A DNA stretch of 64,000 nucleotides from positions 1 to 64,000 of the forward strand of contig DATLUO010000221.1 of NCBI GenBank assembly GCA_035533075.1, given 5' to 3'. The stretch comes from Pirellulales bacterium (GTDB lineage: Bacteria; Planctomycetota; Planctomycetia; Pirellulales; JAICIG01). The notes under the pieces are model-generated. The model did no database searches and was not told the DNA's origin. It was given only the letters and a program-made list of their open reading frames with translations. Positions 15,639-23,068 of this stretch are shown in pieces. Position 1 is the stretch's first letter. Every line of letters starts with the position of its first letter. Position numbers and translations under genes: made by a program.

Positions 15639-15714
15639 GGTAGACGGTAGACGGGGGAGAGAATTGCAAATTGCAAATTGGCAATTGCCTGACGCCTGAC
15701 GTCTACCGTCTACC
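15639..15714. repeat. Inverted repeat between sigma factor and kinase genes
   Basis: ggtagacggtagacg at 15639-15653 and its complement cgtctaccgtctacc at 15700-15714 form a 15-bp stem. Between them is an AT-rich stretch with repeated aattgcaaatt. It may terminate the sigma transcript. The same taccgtctacc string recurs in frame inside the kinase gene near 20885-20915. Confidence 0.7.
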
Positions 15715-15719
15715 GATTT

Positions 15720-15753
15720 TCCTGACAGGTTTTGCCCCCTGCCAACGTACATG
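15720..15753 (+). promoter_or_regulatory. Putative ECF-sigma promoter of the kinase gene
   Basis: The block tcctgacaggttttgcc (15720-15736), 9 unconserved bases, then cgtacatg (15746-15753). The same 17-bp and 8-bp blocks with the same 9-bp spacing occur at 23159-23192 before the giant surface-protein gene. Conservation of both blocks and of the spacing, with different sequence between, is what a -35/-10 pair looks like. The ATG follows 34 bp after the second block. Confidence 0.75.
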
Positions 15754-15787
15754 CTGTTATGGCCCGCTTTTTATGGAGAATCGAACC

Positions 15788-18700
15788 ATGACCGACAAGG
15801 CGGTTTGCCCGGATGCGGCGGCGATCGAACGGCTGCTGCTGGGACGCACCAGCGACGCGGAAACCGACGATCTCGAGCGGCACCTGCTCGATTGCGACCG
15901 CTGTTGCGAGGTTTCGCGTTCGCTGCATCTCGACGACACGATGGTGGCCGGCTTGCGGCGCGACAACCACTTGGCCGCCATCGCCCAGGAGGCCCCGGTG
16001 CGAGCCACGATGGCCCGGCTGATGGCCCTGCGGACTGCCGCGGCCGCCAGCCAGCCGGAAGAGACGATGACGGTGGCCGGCGAGAGCACCGACGACGCCT
16101 GGGGGCTGCGCGAGCTGCTCGACCCGCCCCAGGCCGAGGGCGAGCTGGGCGGTTTCGCCGGCTACCGCGTGCTGCGCGTGCTCGGCGCCGGCGGCATGGG
16201 CATCGTCCTGGAGGCCGAAGATCCGCAGTTGCAACGCCGCGTGGCGCTGAAAATCATGAATCGCGGCCTGGCCGCCCGCAGCGAAAACCGCCAGCGGTTC
16301 CTGCGCGAGGCACGGGCGGCGGCGGCCATCGAGCACGCGCACATCGTCACGGTCCACCAGGTGGGCGAGCAGCGGGGCGTGCCCTTTCTGGCCATGCAGT
16401 TACTCAAGGGCGAGAGCTTGCACGACCGGCTCGAGAGAGAGGGTTCAGGCACCCAGAGGGTACCCCGGGTTCAGGGTTCAGAAAAGAGGGAAGCGGGAAT
16501 GGACAATCCAAAATCCAAAATCCAAAATCCAAAATCGCCTCTGCCGCTGGCCGAGTGCCTGCGCATCGGCCGCGAAACGGCCGAGGCCCTGGCCGTGGCG
16601 CACCAGCGGGGGCTGATCCATCGCGACATCAAGCCGGCCAACATCTGGCTCGAATCGCCGGGCGGCTGGGTGAAGCTGGTCGATTTCGGCCTGGCCCACG
16701 TCGTGGAAGACGAAGTCCATCTTACCCAGACCGGCGCCATCCTGGGCACACCGTCCTATATGTCGCCCGAACAGGCCCGCGGAGACAGCGTGGGTCCGCG
16801 GTCGGACCTGTTCAGCCTGGGCGTGGTGCTCTATCGGCTGACGACCGGGCAAACTCCTTTTCAGGGCCGTGGCACGCTGGCCGTGCTGACGGCGCTGGCC
16901 ACGGCCGATCCGCGGCCCGTGGGCGAGTTGAACCCGGAGCTACCGCCGGCGTTTGCCGACGTCATCATGCGGCTGTTGGCCAAGGATCCGGGCGAGCGGT
17001 TCGAGTCGGCGGAGGCGGTGGCCGAGGCGATTCGGGCAATCGAGGCGGCGGAGAGCGAGGGAGCGAGGGAGAGACAGAGAGACGGAGCGAGGGAGAGACG
17101 GAGCGAGGGAGAGATGGCGGGCAGACCGCCGCGGCGCCGATCGCGCTGGCCGTTGGTGGCCGCGGCGGCAGCGGCTTGTTTTCTGTTGGCGGGCATGGTG
17201 GTGGTCATCCGCGACAAGGAGGGCCGCGAGGTGGCGCGGATCAACGTGCCGGAAGGCGGCAGCGTCGCGACCGAAGAGAGTCCGGCGAGCCCCGCCGCGC
17301 CGGGACGTAAGCTTGCCGGTAGTACCGATGCGGCGAGCCGCCGCGCCACACCAACCCGAAGCGCCAGCGAGGAAAGCGCCAAAGCAGGCCCGGTCCCGGC
17401 GCGCCGGGGTGACGGGAGCGCCAGCCCGTCGCCCGAAGGGCGACCGGCGTCTCCGCCATCCCGGCGCGCCGGGATCGGAGCTACTTTGCCCGACCGTGCG
17501 AAGCCGTTCCTCTTGGTCCGCGAGGGAAAACAGGCCGCCGAGTTCAAGACCATCGCCGGCGCGCTGGGCGAAATGCAAGCCGGCGACGCGATCGAGGTCT
17601 ACGGCAATGGGCCCTTCACGCTGCCGATCGTCAATCTCGATGGCAAGCCGTTCACGCTCCGCGCCGGCGCCGGTTTTCGCCCGCGGTTCGTGCGCACCGA
17701 GGGGGCCAAGCAACAATTCCACAGCGCGTGGATCACAGTCAACAACGCGCCGCTGACACTGGAAGGCATCGAGCTGCGCGAAGATCTGCTTGCCCACAAT
17801 ATCCTGCACGGCGGCGGGGCACCCTGGGAAATCCGCCGCTGCCTGTTGCGCAGGGGGGATTCCCATGCTGCAGCACTGCTTCATTATGAACGTGGACCGC
17901 ACCTGCGAATCGTCGACAGCGTGTTGGCATCGGGGCATAGCCAATATTCGATCAAAATTGGCACATCGGCCGAGGTCCACTGCGAAAACAACCTGTATTG
18001 GAGCGGTGGCAGTTTCTTCACGCTCCAGGGCGGCGGCCAGAAGCTTCGCTTCACGCGGAACACGTTCGCCGGCCAGGGCACTTGGCTCCATTTTCCAGAT
18101 GCGGAACATGCCGCCGTGGAAGTGCTGGCGGAAGAGAACGTGTTTCGCGTCGGCCAATTGCTATGCACGCGCACCACCAGCATGGAGGTATTTCGCGAGG
18201 TCTGTCGCTGGAACGGTCGCCGCAATCTGCACGGTGTTGTCGGTGGTGCCAGCAGTTTGATCTTCAGTCAACCTCTTGAAGGTTCGGGCAGGGTGAGCAT
18301 CGCTGGCGACGACCTGGCCGCCTGGAGCAAGTTCTGGGGCGAGCATGAACAAGGCGCCATGCTCGGTACGACGCCGACGCTGAGGTATGAGGCCGCCTGG
18401 CTGGCCCCTAAGGCCGGCGACCCCCGGCGCGGCGGCAGAGGCATTGCGCTCCGCCGTGATGAAACTCCCCTACCGCGGCTGCACCACTGGCTCGACCCGC
18501 GCCCGCTCGACCCGCTGTCGCCCACCACGGCAGGCTCCGAAGGCGACGCTGGCCCCAGCGCCGCGGTCGGCCCCGATTGGCGCCTGGTCGGCCCCGGCGA
18601 AGCATACCTGCGCGCACTGGCCGATGCCGGGCATCCGGTCACCGACGAGCAGCTTGGCCTGGAGGGGACTGAAGAGGGCGCGGTGGTGCTGCTCCACGAG

Positions 18701-21700
18701 AATACGCTGGCCCGTGGTTACGCGACGGTCGCCGAGGCGGTCGCCGCCGCAGCCGACGGCGACACCGTGGCCATCCGCGCCAACGGCACGTTTCCGGGCT
18801 TCGACCGGCGCGGTGAGCGACAGGGCAAGCGGCTCACGCTGCGCGCCGGTTATGGCTATCAACCGACGATCGGCGATAACGTGCTGTTGGCCCCGGGCGA
18901 TGTGTGGTCGATCGAAGACTTGCACTTCAGTGGCCAGGTCTGGGTGGCGAACGGCGCGCCGGCGGCCGAGGGTCAACCGGCGCCGCGGCTGCTCAATTGC
19001 AGTTTCGAGCCTGCCCTGGCAGCCTCTGGTCCGATGCCGCAGGTCACGACCTACTCGGAAAGCGCTCCGCCGCTGGAGGTGGTGAATTGCCTGCTGCCGA
19101 ATGGGGTCAACTTCGCCGGCGCACGGCTGCGTGTGGTGAATTCGGTTATTGCCTCGGTCGGTCTCAATCCGATCGAGCCGCAACGGCCGCGCGCGCTGGA
19201 TCTCGACCGTTGCGTGGTCTGGAGCAACTTCTCGCCGGCCATTCAACACGGTACTGTTCAGTTGACGGTCAGCGCGCGGCGCACCTGGTTTGAGTTTAGC
19301 AGTTTCCTGCGCCAGGGTGACGACGCGGCATTTCAGTGGCAGGGCGACGAAAACGTCTACTGTCACGGGGCCGTGCGATGGCAGAGCGATTGTGATCTGA
19401 CCACCGCCGCCAATTATGTCGGTTCCCTGCCGGCATGGCAGGCGCGCTGGTCGAGCGACGCAGGCTCGCGCCAGGGCGACGCCGTGTTCATCGACCCGCG
19501 CTTCTGCGGGCTGTTGCCCAACAGCCCCGGCCATCAGGCCGCGCAAGACGGCGGCGACCTGGGCGTGGACCTGAGCCGTCTGGGCATGGCAACCCCGAGC
19601 GACAAGGTAGACCCGGCACTCCGTGACGGGGGCGCCAGCCCGTCGCCCGAAGGGCGACCGACGTCTCCGCCACGGAGTGTCGGAGCTACGTTGCCCGAAC
19701 CGCCGCCGCTCGACGAGTGGCTCAAGGGGCGAGAAATCCTGACCGTCGCCCAGGACGGCAGCGGACAGTTCAAGACCATTCAGGCGGCGCTCGATGCGCT
19801 TAAGCCGCACCAGGTGGTAAAGGTGCTCGACCGCGGGCCATATCGCGAAGTGGTCCGCGCAGACGGCCTGCCACACGATACCGGGCTCATCAGCGACCGG
19901 CAAGCGACCATCCAGCTTTCGGAATGGGACAAGCACGACGGAGCCTACTTAAGCGGGCACAGCTTCGGCCCGCTGGACGGCTTTCGCCTTGCCGGGTGCC
20001 GTTTCGTCGCGCCTCCGCATGAGAAGTGGGTCTGGGCTTCAATTATCGGCTTGCGACGAGTCGAGGGACTTGTGGTGGAAGATTGCTACTTCGGCTGGAC
20101 AGAGCCTCGGCCGGAAAACCGCATCGATCCCGAACCCGCGATCTGCTTGTACTCTGATGACGGCCAGCGCGGCAGTGCCCCGAATGTGGTGCGAAACTGC
20201 TTCTTCAACGCTGCGGCTCTCGGCCTCCAGGGCCCCAACCTCTTCGTCGACCGGAATTTCTTCGTCGACACGATCATCGCGCTGAGTGGACCGAAGCACG
20301 AGACGCGCATTCGGCACAATGTGTTGGTCCGCGATGGGTTTGTGCTCGATTTAGTCAAGATCGACGAGGTCACGGGATTCGTGGAAATCAGCAACAATAC
20401 GGTCTTCGGTGCCGGTTTCGATGTCCGCGACGGCGCACCGAGACAAGGCGTCGCCATTCGCAACAACATTACTACGCAAGGGGTTCGCCTCAGCGGTGAG
20501 GCCGACAAGCTGCGAGACCAAATCTTTAAGAACTGGCTGGTGGACCATAACAGTTACTTACGCCTCGGCTCGCTGCCGAAGGGGCGCGGCGACATCCTGG
20601 AAGATCCCGCGTTCCTTTCGACGGAGCCTGGCGGCCGGGACTACGCGCGCATTCCCGCCGACGGTCCCTTGGCCTCGGGCGGCGCCGGCGGCGACTTGCC
20701 GGACTACGTCGGCGCCTTGCCGCCCGGCCCCGCGCCCAAGGAAGGCGATTGGTTTACGCGGCTGCGAGAGCGGTGGCAGGCCGGCGAGGACAAAGTAGAC
20801 CCGGTCCCGGCGCGCCGGGATGATGTGGGCGCCAGCCCGTCGCCCGAAGGGCGACCAACGTCTCCGCCACGGACCGTTGTTCCCCGTCTACCGCCTACCG
20901 ACTACCGTCTACCTACCTTGGCCGACGAGCGGGCGGTGGCCAAGTGGGTCGTCGAGAACGGCGGCACGGCGGAATGCGGAGACTACCGAAGCTGGCGGAG
21001 CCTGCCCGTGAGGACGGTCCGGCTCAACGGCAACTTGTCGGTGTACGACGATTCGCTGGCACGTTTCCGGCACTGCCCCCGGCTGGACTTCATCGACTTG
21101 AAGCGCACGCTCATCTCCGACGCGGGCCTGGTGTACTTGGCGCCCCTGAGCATGCTTCGCCACCTCGACCTGCGCGAGACCGACGTTTCCGACGCCGGCG
21201 TGCAACGTCTCGCCGCGTTGAAGCTCCTGGAGCGGCTTGACTTAAGCGGCACGCGCGTCAGCAATGCGGCCCTGCCCACGCTGGCCACGGCGTTTCCCGT
21301 GCTACGTTTCCTGCTGCTCGAAGGCACAGCGATTACCGACGCGGGCCTGCCCGCACTGGCCGCACTGGAGCAATTGGACGAGCTCGACCTCAGCCACACC
21401 CAAGTGACCGATGCCGGGCTGGCGCGACTGCAACCGCTCACGGGTCTGATGCGCCTTTCACTCGCGGGCACCGAGACGACCGACGCGGGCATCGACGCGC
21501 TGCACAAGGCGCTCGTCGATTGCTGGATCACCGGGCCGGACGGACGCCTTCACGCCCCGCCGGTGCGCGACGACGATCCCGATCGAACGGCGGCCGAGGC
21601 CCTGCTGGAGAGAGGCTTCAAGGAGATCTGCCTGACGGCCGACGGAGTCAACGAGACGCGTTGCCGGGCCGCGGCGGATCTTCCGCGCGGGCCGTTCAAG

Positions 21701-22711
21701 GTGCTGCGCGTCGAGGTGCTCTGGATGGGCCACGCGCCGAACATCGCGGATGCCGGAGCCGTGGGCGACGCAGAAATCAAGCTGCTCGCGCGGCTGCGGC
21801 AGCTTCGCGTTGCGAATTTGAACGGCACGCAAGTCACAGACCGTGGGCTGGATTGCCTGAAGGGCTTGCCGAAACTCGCCGAGCTGGGCCTCAGCGGCTG
21901 CCGGCGCTTGACCGCTAACGCCCTGTCGCTCTTGGCGACGCTGCCGCGGCTTCGCCTGCTGTGGATCGACGGCGGGTGTTGCACCCCCGCCAGTCTCCAG
22001 CACGTCGCGGCGCTGGCGTATCTCGACTTCCTGCACATCAACGGCGACCAGTTCGCCGACGCGACGCTGAAAAGGCTCAGCGGATTGTCGAACCTGCGGT
22101 TCCTGCGACTGAGCGGCGGGAAAGTCAGCAGCGCTGGTCTGGGGCAGCTCGCATCCCTGCGCAGCCTTTTGTCTTTGGACCTGTCAGATGATGTGAGGTT
22201 GCAGACGAGCGACCTTGAGGGCCTTGCCGAGGTGCGCGGATTGGAAGAGCTTGGTCTGCCCGGCGTCCTCACTTCGCCCGACGTGTTCCGCCGGCTTGCC
22301 GCCCTGCCGCGCTTACTGGTTCTTACTACGCGCGGAACCAAGCTTGGCGACGACGGCTGTCGAGCGATCGCCGGACTGCGGTCATTGGAGGGGCTCGACG
22401 TGACTGGGCGTTTAGTGACCGACGCCGAACTGGCGCACCTCGCGCGGTTGTCGGATTTGCGATATCTGCTGCTGGATGCGGGACAAATCACCGACGCCGG
22501 CCTGGCGCACCTCGCGCAGTTGTCCAATCTGCGAGAGCTCGTGCTCCGCCCGGCGCTCAGCATGAGCGGCGCGGGCCTCGAGCATCTGCACGGCCTGAAG
22601 ATGCTCAAGGTGCTGAGGCTGGTGCAGTTGCCCGTCACTGAATCCACCGAGTCGGGCGTCGCGGCCTTCAAGGCCGCCGTGCCCGGCTGCAGCGTCGATT
22701 GGCCGAAATGA
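15788..22711 (+). CDS. Giant Hanks-type Ser/Thr kinase with beta-helix and leucine-rich-repeat sensor
   Basis: A 2307-aa protein. Start ATG 15788, with GGAG nine bases upstream. Residues 32-39 hold an HxxxCxxC motif (HLLDCDRC) like zinc anti-sigma domains. The kinase spans roughly 126-420, with GAGGMG, the ATP-binding Lys in VALKIM, HRDIKPAN, DFGLAH and GTPSYMSPEQARG all intact. A membrane helix lies near 450-474. Outside follow three parallel beta-helix units (about 573-895, 935-1271, 1305-1658), each opening with a FKTIAGAL/YATVAEAV/FKTIQAAL segment, then LRRs to the C terminus (1710-2304). Short DNA repeats have inserted in frame: one inside the kinase domain, three in interdomain linkers. 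Confidence 0.9.
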   Translation: MTDKAVCPDAAAIERLLLGRTSDAETDDLERHLLDCDRCCEVSRSLHLDDTMVAGLRRDNHLAAIAQEAPVRATMARLMALRTAAAASQPEETMTVAGESTDDAWGLRELLDPPQAEGELGGFAGYRVLRVLGAGGMGIVLEAEDPQLQRRVALKIMNRGLAARSENRQRFLREARAAAAIEHAHIVTVHQVGEQRGVPFLAMQLLKGESLHDRLEREGSGTQRVPRVQGSEKREAGMDNPKSKIQNPKSPLPLAECLRIGRETAEALAVAHQRGLIHRDIKPANIWLESPGGWVKLVDFGLAHVVEDEVHLTQTGAILGTPSYMSPEQARGDSVGPRSDLFSLGVVLYRLTTGQTPFQGRGTLAVLTALATADPRPVGELNPELPPAFADVIMRLLAKDPGERFESAEAVAEAIRAIEAAESEGARERQRDGARERRSEGEMAGRPPRRRSRWPLVAAAAAACFLLAGMVVVIRDKEGREVARINVPEGGSVATEESPASPAAPGRKLAGSTDAASRRATPTRSASEESAKAGPVPARRGDGSASPSPEGRPASPPSRRAGIGATLPDRAKPFLLVREGKQAAEFKTIAGALGEMQAGDAIEVYGNGPFTLPIVNLDGKPFTLRAGAGFRPRFVRTEGAKQQFHSAWITVNNAPLTLEGIELREDLLAHNILHGGGAPWEIRRCLLRRGDSHAAALLHYERGPHLRIVDSVLASGHSQYSIKIGTSAEVHCENNLYWSGGSFFTLQGGGQKLRFTRNTFAGQGTWLHFPDAEHAAVEVLAEENVFRVGQLLCTRTTSMEVFREVCRWNGRRNLHGVVGGASSLIFSQPLEGSGRVSIAGDDLAAWSKFWGEHEQGAMLGTTPTLRYEAAWLAPKAGDPRRGGRGIALRRDETPLPRLHHWLDPRPLDPLSPTTAGSEGDAGPSAAVGPDWRLVGPGEAYLRALADAGHPVTDEQLGLEGTEEGAVVLLHENTLARGYATVAEAVAAAADGDTVAIRANGTFPGFDRRGERQGKRLTLRAGYGYQPTIGDNVLLAPGDVWSIEDLHFSGQVWVANGAPAAEGQPAPRLLNCSFEPALAASGPMPQVTTYSESAPPLEVVNCLLPNGVNFAGARLRVVNSVIASVGLNPIEPQRPRALDLDRCVVWSNFSPAIQHGTVQLTVSARRTWFEFSSFLRQGDDAAFQWQGDENVYCHGAVRWQSDCDLTTAANYVGSLPAWQARWSSDAGSRQGDAVFIDPRFCGLLPNSPGHQAAQDGGDLGVDLSRLGMATPSDKVDPALRDGGASPSPEGRPTSPPRSVGATLPEPPPLDEWLKGREILTVAQDGSGQFKTIQAALDALKPHQVVKVLDRGPYREVVRADGLPHDTGLISDRQATIQLSEWDKHDGAYLSGHSFGPLDGFRLAGCRFVAPPHEKWVWASIIGLRRVEGLVVEDCYFGWTEPRPENRIDPEPAICLYSDDGQRGSAPNVVRNCFFNAAALGLQGPNLFVDRNFFVDTIIALSGPKHETRIRHNVLVRDGFVLDLVKIDEVTGFVEISNNTVFGAGFDVRDGAPRQGVAIRNNITTQGVRLSGEADKLRDQIFKNWLVDHNSYLRLGSLPKGRGDILEDPAFLSTEPGGRDYARIPADGPLASGGAGGDLPDYVGALPPGPAPKEGDWFTRLRERWQAGEDKVDPVPARRDDVGASPSPEGRPTSPPRTVVPRLPPTDYRLPTLADERAVAKWVVENGGTAECGDYRSWRSLPVRTVRLNGNLSVYDDSLARFRHCPRLDFIDLKRTLISDAGLVYLAPLSMLRHLDLRETDVSDAGVQRLAALKLLERLDLSGTRVSNAALPTLATAFPVLRFLLLEGTAITDAGLPALAALEQLDELDLSHTQVTDAGLARLQPLTGLMRLSLAGTETTDAGIDALHKALVDCWITGPDGRLHAPPVRDDDPDRTAAEALLERGFKEICLTADGVNETRCRAAADLPRGPFKVLRVEVLWMGHAPNIADAGAVGDAEIKLLARLRQLRVANLNGTQVTDRGLDCLKGLPKLAELGLSGCRRLTANALSLLATLPRLRLLWIDGGCCTPASLQHVAALAYLDFLHINGDQFADATLKRLSGLSNLRFLRLSGGKVSSAGLGQLASLRSLLSLDLSDDVRLQTSDLEGLAEVRGLEELGLPGVLTSPDVFRRLAALPRLLVLTTRGTKLGDDGCRAIAGLRSLEGLDVTGRLVTDAELAHLARLSDLRYLLLDAGQITDAGLAHLAQLSNLRELVLRPALSMSGAGLEHLHGLKMLKVLRLVQLPVTESTESGVAAFKAAVPGCSVDWPK
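16438..16537. repeat. In-frame low-complexity insertion in the kinase domain
   Basis: ggttcagg repeats are followed by four tandem copies of aatccaaa. They add about 33 codons (including NPKSKIQNPKS) between the hinge segment LLKGESLHDRLE and the helix PLPLAECLRIGRETAEALAV. Normal kinases have a short linker here. The same aatccaaaatccaaaat string is one arm of the internal hairpin of the family A element at 54903-54942. Confidence 0.8.
17387..17484. repeat. Palindromic repeat family D, copy 1, inside the kinase gene
   Basis: Two copies of the 14-bp palindrome cccggcgcgccggg (17395-17408 and 17460-17473) flank the core gccagcccgtcgcccgaagg. The right end reads cggagctac. It encodes a linker with SASPSPEGRPASPP just outside the membrane helix and keeps the frame. 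Confidence 0.85.
19607..19689. repeat. Palindromic repeat family D, copy 2, inside the kinase gene
   Basis: Starts gtagacccgg, has the same core gccagcccgtcgcccgaagg, and ends cggagctac. The flanking arms are ggcactccgtgac and its near-complement cacggagtgtcgg instead of the GC palindrome. That compensating change of both arms indicates selection on the hairpin. In frame, in the linker between beta-helix units 2 and 3. Confidence 0.85.
20795..20873. repeat. Palindromic repeat family D, copy 3, inside the kinase gene
   Basis: Starts gtagacccgg, with the palindrome cccggcgcgccggg at 20806-20819 and the same core. The right arm is lost and is replaced by a taccgcctaccgactaccgt string. It encodes GASPSPEGRPTSPP in the linker between beta-helix 3 and the LRR domain. 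Confidence 0.82.
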
Positions 22712-22746: not shown

Positions 22747-23068
22747 GACCCCATCGAGCTCGCCTCGATTGGTGAAGAAGATGGCGGGCTAGGTTGAAAA
22801 AAGCGACGTGGCGCACGACCCCATCCAGCTCGCCTGGATGGTGAAGCAGATCGTGAGCTACCGAGCAGCCGCCGGAAATCTTATTCACCATCCAGGCGAG
22901 CCGGATGGGGTCTTTTCGCGGAATTCCCCGGCAACCGATTAGCCCGCCATCTCGTTCACCGATCCGCGCAAGGCGGATGGGGTCCTTACTTTCGCGGAAT
23001 CCCCCGGCAACCGATTAGCCCGCATCTTGGTCACTCCCGGCGCGCCGGGACACAAGGCGGATGGGGTC
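22747..23068. repeat. Array of five 45-bp elements, family E
   Basis: Copies at 22747-22791 and 22817-22860 (plus orientation) and at about 22878-22912, 22940-22984 and 23016-23068 (minus orientation). The consensus runs gaccccatcc, gctcgcct, ggatggtgaa, then agatggcgggcta. The last three are separated by a direct repeat ttcgcggaat..ccccggcaaccgat. Copy five is interrupted by the family D palindrome cccggcgcgccggg (23036-23049). The array fills the gap between the kinase and surface-protein genes; opposed copies can form large hairpins and may terminate the kinase transcript. Confidence 0.85.

Follow-up and report, generated by a model that had tools for sequence, protein, structure and literature searches.

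A GTAG-tagged palindromic repeat lies in frame in protein linkers of a Pirellulales genome

Results

The window analysed here, a 64,000-nucleotide stretch of DNA from a Pirellulales bacterium, is part of contig C221 of an 8.54-Mb draft genome (G000). Its open frames and Pfam matches define, on the forward strand at 15671-22711, a gene for a Ser/Thr kinase that continues into a membrane helix, parallel beta-helix-like regions and leucine-rich repeats (LRRs). The longest frame encodes 2346 aa, and the true start probably lies 35-40 codons inside it. The Pfam envelopes place the kinase domain at residues 165-451 and the LRRs from residue 1795, with the membrane helix at residue ~493; the putative beta-helix regions were assigned by sequence pattern and not from a model. 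A single-sequence AlphaFold prediction of the linker region, with a pLDDT of 33, was discarded.

Three copies of a palindromic repeat lie within this gene between 17384 and 20879, all on the forward strand and all keeping the reading frame (15671-22711), as a first-pass annotation of this DNA had reported. Copy 1 (17384-17484) is a complete head-to-head pair of repeat units, both with the 14-bp palindrome CCCGGCGCGCCGGG as their tip (17395-17408 and 17460-17473), around a spacer with a stem-loop at 17428-17444. Copy 2 (19607-19689) is likewise complete, with consensus units at 19607-19631 (+) and 19665-19689 (-) and a spacer stem-loop at 19642-19658, and encodes the peptide VDPALRDGGASPSPEGRPTSPPRSVGAT. 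Copy 3 (about 20795-20879) is a decayed pair that has a 5′ unit with the CCCGGCGCGCCGGG tip (20806-20819) and a spacer stem-loop (20839-20855), and its 3′ unit is truncated after CTCCGCCACGGA. The annotation had correctly noted the palindrome in copies 1 and 3; it occurs once more in the window, at 23036-23049. A further shared sequence, cccggcgcgccggg, is found at each end of copy 1 and at the 5′ end of copy 3. Folded as DNA, copies 1 and 2 form full hairpins (z -5.2 and -4.4), and copy 3, having lost most of its 3′ arm, does not (z -2.0). The interdomain placement proposed for the copies also holds, in that none of the three overlaps the Pfam envelopes of the kinase and the LRRs: copy 1 comes after the membrane helix, copy 2 abuts beta-helix domain 3, and copy 3 lies 5′ of the LRRs.

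The core GCCAGCCCGTCGCCCGAAGG has three matches against 0.01 expected from shuffles, and an exact-core search of the genome, which the annotation had suggested, found the spacer core shared by copies 1-3 in the kinase gene only. Because this core is unique to the gene, three independent insertions are unlikely, and the shared private spacer argues that the three copies probably spread locally. The exact core alone also suggested a repeat private to this gene, a candidate that was overturned when BLAST with copy 2 matched elsewhere in the genome.

The kinase gene contains other short repeats. An in-frame array of 8-mers of the GAGCGAGG/GAGAGACG type occupies 17053-17124, in the juxtamembrane linker; a resembling array adjoins the repeat in the linker of a UvrA protein (L085), and a paralogous kinase on contig C135 has a repeat pair in the linker that corresponds to the array-bearing linker of the window kinase. 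A short in-frame tandem repeat of the AATCCAAAATC type lies in the kinase-domain region (16498-16529), and CCTACCGTCTACC-type repeats are found at 15693-15714, before the kinase start region, and at 20892-20913, directly after copy 3.

BLAST with copy 2 revealed a dispersed family, with about 20 more copies or fragments in the genome. Its unit is 25 bp long (GTAGnYCCGrCACTCCGTGrCGGrG), and the whole element, about 75-101 bp, consists of two units that face each other head to head across a spacer, which forms a stem-loop of its own. By this anatomy the element is a GTAG-tagged REP arranged in head-to-head pairs (BIME/REPIN). At up to 3 mismatches we count 27 units in the 8.54-Mb genome, against 0 for a reversed-pattern control, and 6 additional units (0-2 mismatches) in which the tip CACTCCG is replaced by TCCCGGCGCGCCGGG, that is, the CCCGGCGCGCCGGG-tip form. 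The units group at about 22 sites, and most of the 27 listed units carry the GTAG tag (GTCG or GCAA in 3). Alignment and folding of 18 dimers showed that the pair structure is retained, with little covariation, the stems being nearly invariant. Among 396 genomes of the order, units at no more than 1 mismatch occur in only 4. The annotation had proposed that copy 2 replaced both of its arms; the census reverses this, since the copy 2 tip CACTCCGTG is the genome-wide consensus and copies 1 and 3 have the variant. Mixed pairs, with one unit of either tip, exist at C135:56253-56344 and C45:34324-34409, and thus the tip changes per hairpin unit, not per arm pair.

About 17 of the 22 sites are intragenic, lying in long high-GC3 frames of 13 genes. 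The hosts are the window kinase and its C135 paralogue (three copies each), four other kinases with WD40, FGE-sulfatase or FG-GAP/PQQ domains, a UvrA, an Lhr-like helicase, a LysR regulator, an efflux protein, a DUF4175 protein, a TPR/F5-8C protein and a giant cadherin-type protein. No insert falls within a Pfam envelope, taking best-stretch envelopes only, and genic copies are found in both orientations. Where more than one phase is free of stops, 14/14 sites use the phase in which GTA of the tag is a codon (GTA|G), giving peptides of the form VAPTLRGGx or PPRSVGAT; for this small family, and in a test that treats open phases as equally likely, the bias has p about 1e-5, or 1e-4 once the two multi-copy kinases are collapsed. 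Intragenic pairs measure 80 (five times), 83, 86, 92 and 101 bp, all 2 mod 3, with a single exception of 76, and intergenic pairs measure 75-79 bp with mixed remainders; this length test is marginal (p = 0.057). The sole same-family relative compared, the Pirellulales MAG GZL_HY_2_bin.141 of a sister genus (G001/G077), has the same repeat mostly in intergenic positions, with 2 of 13 sampled sites, covering roughly two thirds of its copies, lying in genes, and the difference in intragenic share is significant by site (Fisher p 0.0005) and by gene (0.003).

The comparison of orthologues that the annotation had called for could be made for other host genes, and not for the window kinase, for which we found no orthologue among 76 relatives. 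The sister-genus DUF4175 orthologue lacks the insert, reading EQLEAGGNDAPAKSLRE where this genome has AERLAEPTVAPTLRGGEPVAAGDGLAPPSRSAGPTRSLRD, and so does its UvrA orthologue; in this genome's UvrA the repeat enlarges a variable linker that joins two tandem halves. In Lhr of other families the insert is absent, with a short turn, RAAVATIGDGRPFW, against about 40 residues here, and the matches break at about query 1055-1099. The sister-genus Lhr has one decayed REP unit at the same place, and on this comparison the insertion probably predates the split of the two genera. A search of solved structures found relatives of Lhr (7lhl), in an alignment that, as shown, ends before the insert site. 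The LysR copy lies within a variable C-terminal tail. In the C135 kinase a pair occupies the equivalent position in front of beta-helix 3, in opposite orientation and with a different spacer; the beta-helix domain that follows is 38% identical to that of the window kinase. Two more linkers of the C135 kinase hold a copy, where the window kinase has either no repeat or a different one. Since orthologues of DUF4175, UvrA and, in other families, Lhr are found without it, the repeat is, as we read these alignments, an insertion tolerated in pre-existing linkers and not a conserved linker. The annotation had pictured it as a source of interdomain linkers; variable linkers are already present at these places in the relatives and in the C135 paralogue, and the repeat lands in them. 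The linkers are too divergent between the genera for exact target-site duplications to be read.

A REP-type transposase (TnpA-REP) had been suggested as a likely companion. The genome has 12 Y1_Tnp domain matches, and none has this REP within 1.5 kb, a test limited by contig ends. The sister-genus genome has 4, and there a REP pair and a Y1 gene are ~1 kb apart, the pair lying between two other genes. No RAYT gene flanked by this REP was found in either genome, and the mover may have been lost or may lie outside the assembly. In 3 cases a different GTAG hairpin (gtagggtgggaccag...) lies 1.2-1.4 kb from a RAYT gene, which chance could explain should that hairpin family be abundant.

Discussion

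The kinase gene of this window holds three members of a repeat family that is dispersed through the genome and found mostly inside genes. We consider it very probable that these are dispersed in-frame REPINs/BIMEs that spread as non-autonomous elements, with the survivors tolerated in linkers and tails. In this model a Y1/HUH transposase of the RAYT type would have mobilized REP pairs as single-stranded hairpins, and selection would then have purged most harmful insertions. The copies left would be those that are in frame, free of stops and located in linkers, surface loops or tails, where they would be read as low-complexity peptides (VAPTLRGGx...PPSRSAGST). In the kinase, one insertion would have served as the seed for the other two through local copying. 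The first-pass view of a small mobile palindrome is supported as far as dispersal, insertion into genes and tolerance in linkers and tails are concerned; with no flanking transposase gene, movement itself is something we infer. The most likely status of the inserts, judged from sequence, is that of near-neutral passengers in linkers that were already tolerant.

The occurrence of one peptide (VAPTLRGG or PPRSVGAT) in several proteins might also reflect an ordinary conserved protein linker whose DNA is palindromic by chance. This idea, which retains hardly any probability, is refuted by the presence of the same DNA in both orientations and in intergenic copies, by DNA identity that persists across unrelated protein contexts, and by the orthologues from which the insert is missing; nor was the same linker peptide found in distant orthologues, the outcome that the annotation had named as decisive for it. 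A different route to the observed pattern would be recombination or duplication of domain-plus-linker modules, shuffled at REPs, with no movement of the repeat itself. Such shuffling would account for the pair directly 5′ of the same beta-helix domain in the two kinases and for the private spacer common to the three in-gene copies. It is nonetheless unlikely: the C135 pair is inverted with another spacer and its kinase has two extra linker copies, BLAST found no self-similar domain repeats in the window protein, and UvrA, Lhr, LysR, the DUF4175 protein and the efflux protein are unrelated and have only the repeat in common.

The peptides may have been selected as useful flexible spacers, so that benefit and not tolerance would underlie the bias in frame and location; such an exaptation may coexist with the spread of REPINs. 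The single phase throughout and the retention of an Lhr remnant in two genera fit such a role, but the inserts vary in length and state of decay, relatives manage without them, microsatellite-like repeats occupy the same linkers, and purifying selection alone accounts for the bias. We therefore regard selection for the peptides as improbable, and favor tolerated spread of REPINs.

REPs were named for being extragenic. GTAG REPs, as described by Di Nocera et al. (2013, PMC3733652), have a terminal unpaired GTAG, a short stem-loop, alternative loops, head-to-head dimers with structured spacers, and copies in frame within genes, uvrA among them; intragenic copies are there a recorded minority, most of them in Opitutus terrae, and Rhodopirellula baltica is listed with REP families. 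The element described here resembles them in its tag, a stem-loop unit within the 20-40 bp range (25 bp here), dispersal, head-to-head dimers, alternative loops and in-frame copies, whereas the GTAG REPs described there are mostly intergenic and here about three quarters of the sites are genic and in one phase. REPINs are single hairpins built from two inverted REPs and the variable spacer between them; RAYT transposases move them, and single REPs resemble their decay products (PMC8049555). Our element shares the inverted-pair hairpin, and differs from these elements, described as extragenic and RAYT-moved, in being mostly genic and in having no linked RAYT that we could find. A parallel in coding sequence is offered by the RPEs of Rickettsia, palindromic elements that, as described in PMC10969869 (citing Ogata et al. 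2000, 2002), sit in frame in numerous unrelated genes and are read through; Di Nocera et al. (PMC3733652) class two intragenic repeats of R. conorii, RPE-4 and RPE-6, among the CGTC REPs. Insertion in frame in unrelated genes, here 13, is common to both, with read-through predicted in our case. Ends and host set the two apart: RPEs are ~150 bp long and belong to an obligate intracellular bacterium, in contrast to GTAG-ended elements of 75-101 bp in an 8.5-Mb Pirellulales genome.

Intragenic REPs and RPEs are thus already described, and what the present case adds is a genic-biased family in Pirellulales. In the library of papers searched, none was found on it, and we regard it as a probably new, unusually genic REP family of this order. 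It extends the Rickettsia type of protein-coding palindrome to another phylum. The contrast between genic copies here and mostly intergenic copies in the sister genus lets insertion be compared directly with the selection that follows it, and the genome pair allows a test of whether REPs make the linkers of very large multidomain proteins longer.

The tip palindrome CCCGGCGCGCCGGG has a distribution of its own. It occurs at 60 sites in this genome and at 60 in G018, from another Pirellulales family, against 0-3 in 55 other genomes; its reversed form is found 0 times in these two genomes and 0-4 times elsewhere. The 60 sites may be an artefact. The palindrome is usually flanked T...A and is spread over unrelated repeat contexts, including this REP, a hairpin GTAGGGTGGGACCAG...CGCCGGCCCACC whose tip it replaces at loci L105 and L132 relative to the L025 form, and TTCAGGG heptamer arrays, which it interrupts with an apparent TT duplication. 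A longer hairpin around it is in general unsupported (flank complementarity 5.3, versus 5.6 for mismatched flanks). Its replacement of hairpin tips in at least 2 different REP-like families of this genome raises the possibility, which we consider less likely than not, that the 16-bp palindrome TCCCGGCGCGCCGGGA, of which CCCGGCGCGCCGGG is the 14-bp core, can itself be exchanged or move as a unit. If so, it would be among the smallest spreading DNA units known.

Related hairpins occur in this genome and in the order. A second GTAG-tagged family (GTAGGGTGGGACCAGCGAGCTTGCGAGCGCCGGCCCACC) is present at L132, L105, L025, L026 and L029, with some copies bearing the CCCGGCGCGCCGGG tip. In G191, of another Pirellulales family, a related REP, GTAGGCCCGTCACTCCGTGACGGGC, is found at L239-L244; it is partly intragenic and forms short direct arrays, with a spacing of 41 bp in L239.
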